Shown here: in pieces, positions 15,273 through 51,127 of the stretch
Position numbering within the stretch: the stretch's first letter is position 1
Layout of the letters: the number at the start of each line of letters is the position of its first letter
From: Natrialba aegyptia DSM 13077
GTDB taxonomy: Archaea > Halobacteriota > Halobacteria > Halobacteriales > Natrialbaceae
DNA length: 64,000 nucleotides
Assembly (NCBI RefSeq): GCF_000337535.1
Contig: NZ_AOIP01000031.1
Span: forward strand, 382,704 to 446,703
Direction of reading: 5' to 3'
The notes under the pieces: model-generated
Seen by the model: the letters and a program-made list of their open reading frames with translations, nothing else
What the model was told of the DNA's origin: nothing
The model's database searches: none
Program-made: the position numbers and the translations under genes

Positions 15273-16463
15273 TTACCGGATAACGTCGACGCCGTTCTGT
15301 TTCTCGAGTTCGCTTCGGCCGCCGTCGCTCTGCGCGCCGAATCCCTGTTTGCGTCCGGATTCGACGTTGTTGCTCGCGTCGAAGTCGGCATCGTTGAGCC
15401 CTTCGATGCTGGCGCGGGACTTGTCGGCCTGCTTTTGCGTCGTCGGACCGAGGACCTGGGCGCTCTGGACGCCGGTCATGATCGCCATGACGCGGACCTT
15501 ACCCTTGTAGTTCTCCTGAATGCGGGCACCCCAGATGACGTTCGCGGAGGCCTCGAGGCGCTCCGTGATGTTGTCTGCGATCCCTTCTGCCTCTTTGAGT
15601 GTGAGGTCCGGACCACCCGTGATGTGGACGAGTCCACCGGATGCACCGCGGTAGTCGACGTCCAGCAGCGGGTGGTTCATCGCGTCCTTGACGACCTCGT
15701 CGGTCTTGTTCTTGTCCTGGGTTTCGCCGACGAGCATGACGGCGACGCCGCCCTGGTTCATGATCGTGGACATGTCCGCGTAGTCCAGGTTGATCAGGGA
15801 CGGCTGTGTGATCGTCTCCGAGATACCCTTGACGGTCTCGGCGATGATCTGGTCCATCACGGAGAACGCCTTGCCGATCGGCAGGTTCGGGACGTAATCG
15901 AGCAGCCGGTTGTTGTCCAGCACGATAATGGAGTCGGCCTGCTCGCGGAGTTTCTCGAGACCTTCCTCGGCTTTGACCGTGCGGGCGCGCTCGACGTTAA
16001 ATGGCGTCGAGACCATCCCGACGACGATCGCACCCTGCTCTTTGGCGATCTTCGAGACGACGGGGGCGGCACCCGTGCCGGTGCCACCGCCCATCCCCGC
16101 GGTCACGAAGACGAGGTCTGCGTCACCGAGGACTTCCTTGATCGTACTCTGGGCCATCTCGGTCGCCCGTTCGCCCATCGACGGATCGCCACCGGCACCG
16201 AGCCCGTTCGTGAGCGACTTGCCGACGAGGATCTTCGTGTCGGCCTCGATCATCTTCAGGTGCTGTTTGTCCGTGTTGATCGCGACCGTGTCGGCACCGT
16301 CGACACCGATGTTATACAGCCGATTGATGGTGTTGTTCCCCGCACCACCGCAGCCGACGATGACGATCCGGGGCTCGCCGAACTCGTCTTCGTCCATCGA
16401 TGCGTCCATCTCACGGGCTTCCTGTTCCGCGTTGTCGAGGGCGTCCTGAACAATATCCTGCAT
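15273..16463 (-). CDS. ftsZ2: cell division protein FtsZ2
   Basis: A 396-aa tubulin-superfamily GTPase of the haloarchaeal FtsZ2 type. The tubulin signature GGGTGTG is at 125-131, the N-terminal GCGGAGNNT loop at 37-45, and the T7 loop NLDYAD at 225-230. The N-terminus [20 protein letters not shown] and the body closely match Haloferax FtsZ2 (as opposed to FtsZ1) from memory. FtsZ2 is needed for midcell constriction. The gene starts 2 bp after the cdrS stop, so the two form a bicistronic operon. The C-terminus after about 345 is a polar disordered tail. Confidence 0.95.
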
Positions 16464-16465
16464 CG

Positions 16466-16645
16466 TTACACCTTGGCCCAGTTGTGTTTACCGGCCTGTT
16501 CGCCGTGGCCGTCGTACTGTTCGTTGATCATTTCCCGGACCGCCGACCGGATCGCCTCGCTCCGGTTTGGGAACTCGCCCGAGTCGACCAACTGCTCTAC
16601 TTCGTCGATCTGCTGTTTCGGGATACGCAGTGTCACACGCTCCAT
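16466..16645 (-). CDS. cdrS: ribbon-helix-helix cell division regulator CdrS
   Basis: A 59-aa single-domain RHH DNA-binding protein: beta strand RVTLRIP at 3-9, then two helices ([15 protein letters not shown] and [18 protein letters not shown]). RHH proteins bind as dimers to palindromic or repeated sites. In Halobacterium CdrS was shown to control ftsZ2 and cell division. It lies 2 bp before ftsZ2. An upstream in-frame extension exists but the ATG at 16645 gives the known protein size. The region just upstream carries the GTAAGAC box array, a likely autoregulatory operator. Confidence 0.95.
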
Positions 16646-16663
16646 TGTTGTATTCCCCGTTGG

Positions 16664-16841
16664 GTAAGACGGTGGCGCGCCCCTGTCAGACACGACGTGT
16701 CTTACACCGGAGACGCCCGACATCGGGCAGTTTCCGCCGTTTTGCATCCGGTGTAAGACGGCCGTCTTACGCGAATAAACGGAATACTGTCTTGCATAAT
16801 AAAACTACCGACGAGCCGGACGATCACTGTCTTACGACAGT
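16664..16841. promoter_or_regulatory. GTAAGAC/GTCTTAC operator array upstream of cdrS-ftsZ2
   Basis: Six copies of a heptamer lie in 172 bp: GTAAGAC at 16664-16670 and 16753-16759; GTCTTAC at 16699-16705, 16764-16770 and 16829-16835; a variant GTCTTGC at 16789-16795. Two copies form the perfect 18-bp palindrome GTAAGACGGCCGTCTTAC (16753-16770). Further symmetric elements are a 12-bp inverted repeat (GTCTTACACCGG at 16699-16710 with its complement at 16748-16759), GACAC-GAC-GTGTC (16689-16701) and ACTGTC-TTAC-GACAGT (16826-16841). Minus-strand TATA candidates are at about 16773-16779 and 16797-16804, so the perfect palindrome lies where it could block initiation. Confidence 0.8.
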
Positions 16842-16861: not shown

Positions 16862-17617
16862 CTACCTCGACTCCAGTACGTCCGCTGCTGGCGTCCGTCG
16901 TCCACAGCCCGGACAGAACGACCAATCGGATCTGAACTCATCGCCGCACTCACAGAACAATCGCCGTGAGGACTTCTCACCGCAGTTCGGGCAGTAAACG
17001 TGCTCGTCGTCAACGGGCTCGCCACACTGTCCACACGTCGTTTGCATCGATTCCGATCGCGCCTGTTCCTGGTCGGCCTGTTGTGGTGCGGGCTGCCCGC
17101 CGCCGTTTCGACTCGAGTTCGCTCGTGAACCCTGTACCGAATCGGCCGGTTGATTATTTGGTCGTCTGACATGGTCTTCAGATGACGCCCGTTCGGACTC
17201 GCGCGTCTCCGACTGCTCGTCAGCCGACTGGAACGCCTGCCCTGCAAGCGAGACGGTGACATTGATGTCCTGTGTCTCACGGTCGCGGACATGTCTATCG
17301 CGTCGTCCGTCGCCGGCGTATGACGGCTCCTGTGGACCCGTCTGGCCGACAGGGTGCTGTCCGACGAGCGACGCAACCTGCTTGGCTACGAGTTCATCGA
17401 CGCGTTCGCGGACGAGTTCGTCGAGCGTCTGATCGAGTGCTGAACTCGCCGGTGCGGCATCAGTTGTCGCGTTCCGCTCCGCGCGGGTATCGGAGACTGG
17501 TCCCTCGTGACCGAGATACGAACGGAGTGCCTGGCGCATTGCCTCGCTCTTCGAAAGATCGAGGGCCTCGAGTTCGTCGACGAGGGCGTCATCGGCGCGG
17601 AACGTGATCTTACTCAT
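16862..17617 (-). CDS. cdrL: CdrL, RHH regulator with zinc ribbons
   Basis: A 251-aa protein with an N-terminal RHH domain (MSKITFRADDALVDELEALDL, then KSEAMRQALRSYLG to about residue 36), a long polar disordered middle rich in Gln, Ser and Arg, and two C-terminal zinc ribbons (C195/C198 with C209/C212, and C222/C224 with C235/C238). It occupies the conserved position behind cdrS-ftsZ2 and is the long partner of CdrS. It probably binds DNA, possibly the box array downstream of its stop codon, and may oligomerise or recruit partners through the zinc ribbons. The upstream region at 17618-17742 lacks the GTAAGAC heptamer. Confidence 0.9.
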   Translation of the reverse strand: MSKITFRADDALVDELEALDLSKSEAMRQALRSYLGHEGPVSDTRAERNATTDAAPASSALDQTLDELVRERVDELVAKQVASLVGQHPVGQTGPQEPSYAGDGRRDRHVRDRETQDINVTVSLAGQAFQSADEQSETRESERASSEDHVRRPNNQPADSVQGSRANSSRNGGGQPAPQQADQEQARSESMQTTCGQCGEPVDDEHVYCPNCGEKSSRRLFCECGDEFRSDWSFCPGCGRRTPAADVLESR

Positions 17618-17742
17618 AGCCCGATATACAGGACTATTGATGAGCTACCTATATCAATCATGCTGTTACGTGCTACCAAACTCATTCCAGCAGCTGAAAT
17701 AATAACCCTTATGTTCCGTTCGGCGACTACGTGTGAGTGTAC

Positions 17743-17816
17743 CCGCCCTTAGCTCAGACTGGTAGAGCAGTCGACTGTAGATCGACTTGTCCCCCGTTCA
17801 AATCGGGGAGGGCGGA
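17743..17816 (+). tRNA. tRNA-Tyr (GTA)
   Basis: A 74-nt cloverleaf with a 7-bp acceptor stem (CCGCCCT with AGGGCGG), GCTC/GAGC D stem, anticodon stem GTCGA/TCGAC, anticodon GTA at 17777-17779 and T arm CCCCG-TTCAAAT-CGGGG. The discriminator is A and the CCA end is not encoded. No intron is present. Confidence 0.96.
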
Positions 17817-18390
17817 CTCGGATTCTCGCTGAACTGAATTCGAAACCGGTAGTGGTGTTTACGCCGGTTTTCGGGCATCTACTCCCGTTTCTTGTTCGTA
17901 GAAGCGACCGGCAAATCTGGAGTGGAGTTCGTTTCCAGTCGGGGCCACCGCCTGCTGTCGAATTTTGTAGTGGAGATTTGGAGTGATCTGTGTGACGATC
18001 GTCCGGCGGGCGGTAGACAACACACAGCGATCCCGTTTCAGAACTCGCAGCAGAACGGGGCTGTATCGCGTTTTCGGTATCGATGAGATCATGCGTCGAT
18101 GGAGCGGTGGGAGAAGTTGGGAGATCGGCGTCCAGCCGATCCGGCTTGCGTTGGCCGAGCGTATCGGAGAGGGGCCAGCAACCGGCGAAGCCGTGCGGTA
18201 GTGGTAGGTGTGGTGTTGGGGCTACCGCAGGCAGTTAGACAACACGCAGTGCGAGGATAAATGGCCGTGTCGATGGCAACCTACGTCGATCGTCCTTCGA
18301 GATCGAAGGGGGGCCACGCCCGCCGTCCAGTGACGGCAAGCACGCAAACGCCGGCCGTCGGCTTTTGCGTCGTGTGGTGATACCGCGCGT
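17817..18390. other. 574-bp gene-free stretch after tRNA-Tyr
   Basis: No convincing reading frame or known RNA is seen. An AACCGG...CCGGTT inverted repeat (about 17841-17866) just after the tRNA may be a processing or termination structure. A 10-bp direct repeat TAGACAACAC occurs at 18014-18023 and 18236-18245 with similar flanks. The stretch may hold a small RNA or a decayed gene. Confidence 0.4.
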
Positions 18391-51005: not shown

Positions 51006-51127
51006 TTGATCACCGCCACCAGAAGACATATATTTAACAGCCATTTCACCACGCTTATCTATTGTTGCAAAACAACACTAGCAATGAAACGTTCTGTATG
51101 CTGTGTAAGACAATCAACTGACCAGCC

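Follow-up and report, generated by a model that had tools for sequence, protein, structure and literature searches.

A GTAAGAC box array conserved across Halobacteria as the probable operator of the cdrS-ftsZ2 cell-division operon

Here we describe an array of 7-bp boxes (GTAAGAC, read as GTCTTAC on the opposite strand) that includes one inverted pair and lies in the promoter region of the cdrS-ftsZ2 cell-division operon across the Halobacteria. The conservation of the boxes and their position in the promoter make it almost certain that the array is a functional DNA operator of this promoter throughout the class. As the best explanation of the data as a whole, we consider it probable that this operator is read by RHH proteins and descends from an older array of GTC-N-GAC boxes; phased repeats that differ by one letter in related methanogens suggest that archaeal division has an ancient control site in DNA. 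For the control of division tubulin levels in archaea, the array offers a precise cis-element, open to mutation one base at a time in Haloferax or Halobacterium. New here are the GTC-N-GAC box in 29 loci outside the Halobacteria, its change to GTAAGAC within the Halobacteria at a locus whose regulator, CdrS, has GTC-type boxes at the published target promoters examined, the boxes of the cdrL promoter and the retention of the inverted pair in lineages that lack CdrL.

The window (the whole 64-kb stretch of DNA that was analysed) carries the three genes of the locus on its reverse strand. cdrS (16466–16645) encodes a 59-aa RHH regulator (Pfam RHH_1) with strand residues R3, T5 and R7; ftsZ2 (15273–16463) encodes a Tubulin/FtsZ_C protein (Pfam); and cdrL (16862–17617) encodes an RHH protein with a double zinc ribbon, a sub-threshold CdrL_M match and strand residues K3, T5 and R7. 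These identities agree with those given in the initial annotation. The array fills the intergenic region between the cdrS start (16645) and the cdrL end (16862). Box D (16664–16670, GTAAGAC on the forward strand and GTCTTAC on the operon strand) lies 18 bp upstream of the cdrS start codon, and is followed by box C (16699–16705, GTAAGAC on the operon strand), by boxes A and B, which together form the palindrome GTAAGAC-GGCC-GTCTTAC (16753–16770, GTAAGACGGCCGTCTTAC, not assigned to either strand), and by box E (16829–16835), which likewise reads GTAAGAC on the operon strand and precedes the core promoter. Between the palindrome and box E is a degenerate box (16789–16795, reverse strand; GCAAGAC, one mismatch), at a position that is uncommon in relatives. 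The perfect 18-bp palindrome and the start-to-start spacings of 35, 54, 11, 25 and 40 bp were thus annotated correctly, but of the six heptamers counted there in 172 bp five are exact (starting at 16664, 16699, 16753, 16764 and 16829); the sixth, at 16789, reads GTCTTGC and has one mismatch. One other exact copy is found in the window, at 51105. The resulting total of six is not unusual (shuffle mean 4.6); the clustering is exceptional, with a maximum of two per 172 bp in 300 simulated 64-kb sequences (first-order Markov), and GTAAGACGGCCGTCTTAC occurs once in the 4.6-Mb genome. A literature search for the heptamer returned no relevant archaeal paper.

GTAAGAC-N4/5-GTCTTAC is present in 275 of 292 Halobacteria genomes and in 72 of 77 genera, counts that, like the shuffle-based ones below, describe breadth and not probabilities, since related genomes are not independent and the shuffles were simple ones of dinucleotide blocks; a reversed control pattern has no match in the 292 genomes. 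The palindrome is a single-copy element in 274 of the 275 positive genomes. Two copies are found in one genome alone, G240 of family f4. All 196 cdrS loci that were read keep the palindrome, either exactly or with up to two mismatches and with a spacer of 2–5 bp, and where the exact N4/N5 form is missing from a genome the loci read show a spacer of 2–3 bp or one or two mismatches. One genome without the exact form, G230, yielded no CdrS at E ≤ 1e-12, for which an assembly gap is a possible reason. The comparison across Halobacteria that the initial annotation had proposed therefore finds very strong conservation of the upstream region.

In a non-redundant set of 106 loci (72% identity), the two boxes of the palindrome (14 columns) are near-invariant and the flanks are variable. 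GTAAGAC is the top 7-mer before cdrS and occurs in all 106 loci, which together hold 454 exact boxes against 3.4 in simple dinucleotide-block shuffles; GTCAGAC is seen before cdrS in only 16 of them. Further boxes recur around the palindrome: an ATG-proximal box (≤42 nt from the ATG) in 97 of the 106 loci, an equivalent of box C, frequent at 62–68 bp downstream of the palindrome start, and a box before the TATA element, 35–75 bp ahead of the palindrome, in 88 of 100 loci with CdrL versus 2 of 6 without it. In every one of the 80 named loci that were retrieved by similarity of CdrS, 3–6 exact boxes lie no more than 400 bp from cdrS, and their positions are alike. Box distances in the haloarchaeal loci are only partly regular, with spacers of 2–5 bp and a phasing that is not strict. 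Viral contigs contain, by raw count, 56 matches to the palindrome; a reading of these as viral decoy sites was considered and not adopted.

Anchoring the 106 loci on the palindrome reveals TATA-like columns at −32 to −26 of its start, conserved columns before them that fit a BRE, and a conserved pyrimidine-purine step at −3/−2. On the operon strand of the window, the conserved T/A-rich columns correspond to a predicted TATA element at 16796–16804 (TTTTATTAT), and the pyrimidine-purine initiator places the predicted transcription start at 16772, two bases ahead of box A. The predicted leader would be 127 nt long (16646–16772) and would contain the palindrome and boxes C and D, with the palindrome predicted at about +3 to +20 of the transcript. 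Boxes A–D, oriented > < > < in this predicted leader, can pair, and a published suggestion is that ftsZ2 is regulated post-transcriptionally (PMC8303175); the boxes might then act in RNA, with leader hairpins A:B and C:D controlling translation or decay. We regard this as extremely improbable. Six of the seven palindrome deviations break inverted-repeat pairing, and none of the seven is a compensatory change or a two-sided Watson–Crick exchange; moreover, box E is placed before the promoter, the orientation of the ATG-proximal box is flipped in four loci, and there is no match in Rfam. What is kept is the sequence of the boxes, not their pairing, which favours a protein that reads DNA, and, given the pair-breaking changes and the lack of an Rfam match, we reject an RNA hairpin as the main function.

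Among other Halobacteriota, 54 genomes were searched for CdrS, and the positive ones provided 29 cdrS-ftsZ2 loci. The commonest 7-mer before cdrS in these loci is GTCAGAC (47 copies, in 25 of the 29 loci; shuffle mean 0.5), one base different from the haloarchaeal box. Pair distances are mainly 11, 22, 33, 44 and 55 bp. The 11-bp register that fits best contains six units in the median locus and usually spans about −77 to −15 relative to the start codon; only one or two units are seen in a few divergent loci. The GTA palindrome is at control level outside the Halobacteria (1 of about 280 genomes, versus 3 for the reversed pattern). From this comparison of sequences, the change from GTC to GTA maps to the base of the Halobacteria, where CdrL also originated according to PMC7439475. 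The coincidence of the two is a correlation on one branch, and a causal connection is a hypothesis. It would give a testable account, in which a one-base change, coinciding with the appearance of a second RHH regulator, may have divided an ancestral array with a single regulator into two near-orthogonal channels.

The CdrS strand, MERVTLRIP, shows no variation among 199 haloarchaeal sequences, and the window, N. taiwanensis and N. asiatica encode identical CdrS proteins. R3, T5 and R7 are common to CdrS outside the Halobacteria, where K3 is found in a few divergent sequences; the two proteins of the pair differ at strand residue 3, with K in CdrL and R in CdrS. A structure model of CdrS, with RHH-type helices in a single chain without an assigned strand, adds little, and its comparison with known structures gave weak RHH matches only, none at Foldseek E ≤ 0.001. 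Four loci of other Halobacteriota (L351 and L353–L355) encode divergent CdrS-like proteins in which strand position 3 is K. The weakest CdrS matches come from L353–L355, of which L354 and L355 have a single GTCCGAC box. In two deep-branching Halobacteria, cdrL has beside it a gene for a second RHH protein that is similar to the N terminus of CdrL (G021:C81:15720-15968 and G218:C11:130953-131243).

Published binding data exist for both proteins. ChIP-seq of CdrL in Halobacterium salinarum gave a sole reproducible site, located at region level upstream of cdrS-ftsZ2 (PMC7439475); the genes and the intergenic region are those of the array, and the main text of that study names no motif or boxes, which are described here. 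ChIP of CdrS in Haloferax volcanii gave 18 sites, including ftsZ1, dacZ and hisB, at 41–110 nt upstream of the TSS, and neither the cdrS promoter nor cdrL is among those in Table 1 (PMC8406309). We derived a CdrS motif from the promoters of three of these 18 targets (ftsZ1, hisB and dacZ), using genomes presumed to be Haloferax from their 61-codon CdrS. In these genomes ftsZ1 is preceded by GTCRGAC-N4-GTCTGAC 58 nt before its ATG (reported ChIP–TSS distance −50) and hisB by GTCAGAC-N4-GTCTGAC 78–79 nt before its ATG (reported distance −76). Upstream of dacZ, the window genome and presumed Halobacterium have GGCAGAC-N4-GTCTGAC, presumed Haloferax has one good GTCAGAC box, and the CdrL-less genomes tested have nothing close to the derived motif. 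The CdrS motif thus probably consists of GTC-N-GAC boxes in the same inverted arrangement as the cdrS operator, which differs at the third base. Like the cdrS palindrome, the motif as derived here (for the Haloferax volcanii sites of PMC8406309) is symmetric, with two 7-bp boxes separated by N4, but its half-sites are GTC and not GTA; the motif also lies upstream of the TSS, whereas the cdrS array has several boxes and its palindrome lies downstream of the predicted TSS. A search for GTNAGAC-N4-GTCTNAC with up to one mismatch found 7–11 sites per genome versus 1–2 for the reversed control, some of them inside open frames and many without an assigned gene, and sites away from cdrS are rarely of the GTA form. 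One CdrS-like site (L289; G000:C32, site 57720) lies about 60–80 bp before a gene that, by eye, is a putative methenyltetrahydromethanopterin cyclohydrolase gene.

The initial annotation had reported the heptamers to be absent before cdrL (17618–17742). This holds for the window strain, which also has no GTC-N-GAC there, but not for the class: 67 of 100 haloarchaeal loci have GTC-N-GAC at −80 to −40 of cdrL (shuffle mean 2.4, largest 9; control words 0–6), typically at about −50 to −65 (for example L041, L042 and L157). An N4 partner is usual; when the better of two partners is taken, 41 of the 67 loci agree with the half-sites at no fewer than 11 of their 12 bases. One of two presumed Haloferax loci has one single box upstream of cdrL and the other has none, in agreement with the lack of cdrL in the Haloferax CdrS ChIP table. 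From these sequences we infer a reciprocal wiring, in which CdrS would act on cdrL in many species and CdrL on cdrS; such an account predicts CdrS sites at the cdrL promoter. Directly upstream of cdrL, and divergent from it, the window has a tRNA-Tyr gene (17743–17817), an arrangement shared by most relatives, and a tRNA-like motif was found upstream of cdrL in 73 of 100 loci.

CdrL is described as specific to Halobacteria and encoded by all sequenced ones (PMC7439475), but several genomes studied here lack it. In these genomes (G183, G026, G002, G136/G261, G007/G001 and G093) no CdrL is encoded in the roughly 2 kb preceding cdrS, as far as the DNA extends (1.5 kb for G183), and genome-wide searches with a single sequence and with a 31-sequence profile gave no credible match. 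The best profile E-value was 9e-5, for zinc-ribbon-like matches, versus 1e-50 to 3e-75 in controls. Judged by family and genus labels alone, CdrL was lost at least four and perhaps six times (in f4, in f10 and once or twice in each of f2 and f3). All of these genomes keep the palindrome, mostly exact, and CdrL therefore cannot be its only reader. Among the RHH proteins inspected in them, CdrS alone has an R/K-x-T-x-R strand.

RHH dimers, for example those of Arc and ParR, bind short boxes and pair on one face of the DNA. Two such dimers could occupy the palindrome, whose box centres are 11 bp apart, or one helical turn. Occupancy over the first transcribed bases would hinder initiation, and we favour repression as the net effect; further contacts would be made at box E, upstream of the TATA element, and at C and D, which lie in the leader. 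The boxes are very probably read by CdrS, CdrL or both. In the scheme that we prefer, the haloarchaeal array would have descended from a CdrS-read GTC-N-GAC array with 11-bp phasing. In species that have it, CdrL, alone or together with CdrS, is somewhat more likely than not to be the main reader of the GTA boxes. CdrS would read GTC boxes elsewhere, including those of the cdrL promoter of most species, and would be the likeliest reader of the array in CdrL-less lineages; the retention of the palindrome there and the GTC-N-GAC arrays outside the Halobacteria point to it. CdrS may also help activation, perhaps by opposing CdrL, as suggested by the 1.3–2.2-fold drop of ftsZ2 transcripts in a cdrS deletion in Halobacterium, which is contrary to pure autorepression by CdrS. 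The feedback loop through CdrS and CdrL proposed in the initial annotation thus gains from the CdrL ChIP site at the locus, but simple autoregulation by CdrS has become less certain, with no ChIP peak at its own promoter and with the examined targets being of the GTC type.

Two simpler assignments are each possible but unlikely. The array could be a private operator of CdrL, with CdrS reading only GTC-N-GAC. The single reproducible CdrL ChIP site (PMC7439475) matches a single-copy palindrome that CdrS ChIP did not recover, CdrL is confined to the Halobacteria according to that study, as is the GTA box but for 1 of about 280 other genomes, box E is far more frequent in loci with CdrL, and the two proteins differ at strand residue 3. 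Against this, the genomes without CdrL that keep the palindrome weaken the case for CdrL as sole reader (both the one-sequence and the 31-sequence profile checks bear on this), and the loss of box E may merely reflect a deletion beside cdrL. Conversely, CdrS could read GTC and GTA boxes alike, with GTA as a lower-affinity form that tunes simple autoregulation: CdrS is encoded in every locus read, its strand is identical across haloarchaeal sequences and is the sole one of its kind among the inspected RHH proteins of genomes that lack CdrL, and related arrays precede cdrS outside the Halobacteria. Yet its own promoter is missing from the CdrS ChIP sites, and the GTA form is rare at motif sites elsewhere. 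A third, dedicated regulator would explain both the CdrL-less retention and the missing ChIP peak, but is improbable: the locus encodes no candidate besides CdrS and CdrL, the RHH proteins inspected in CdrL-less genomes include no shared one with a similar strand, and the ancestral boxes, one base different, fit CdrS. A heterodimer that reads the asymmetric GTA-A-GAC box was also considered.

Two known RHH systems resemble the one proposed here. The NikR operator, GTATGA-N16-TCATAC (PMC7055735), has a half-site similar to GTA-T-GA, the commonest variant box in our set, and the NikR homotetramer also uses an asymmetric half-site, as the GTA-A-GAC box is asymmetric; however, NikR is a nickel-responsive tetramer with an N16 spacing, and in a Pfam scan CdrS and CdrL have no NikR metal domain. 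In ParR–parC (PMC5016525), as in cdrS-ftsZ2, a small RHH gene stands beside the gene of a filament-forming GTPase or ATPase, and tandem repeats lie upstream of the operon; the parC iterons of R1 are split around the promoter and each binds one RHH dimer (PMC5016525). The division operon differs in being chromosomal, in encoding a tubulin-type FtsZ with a role in division and in the dispersed boxes of its haloarchaeal form. The likeness might conceivably be mechanistic, with CdrS (and CdrL in Halobacteria) coating the boxes, regulating the operon and forming a scaffold sensed by FtsZ2, although we consider this analogy with plasmid partition iterons very unlikely to hold; if true, an iteron-like complex would couple division-ring assembly to the chromosome. 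Tandem boxes of constant phase, the arrangement of parC iterons, are found in most of the cdrS loci outside the Halobacteria but not in the array of the window.
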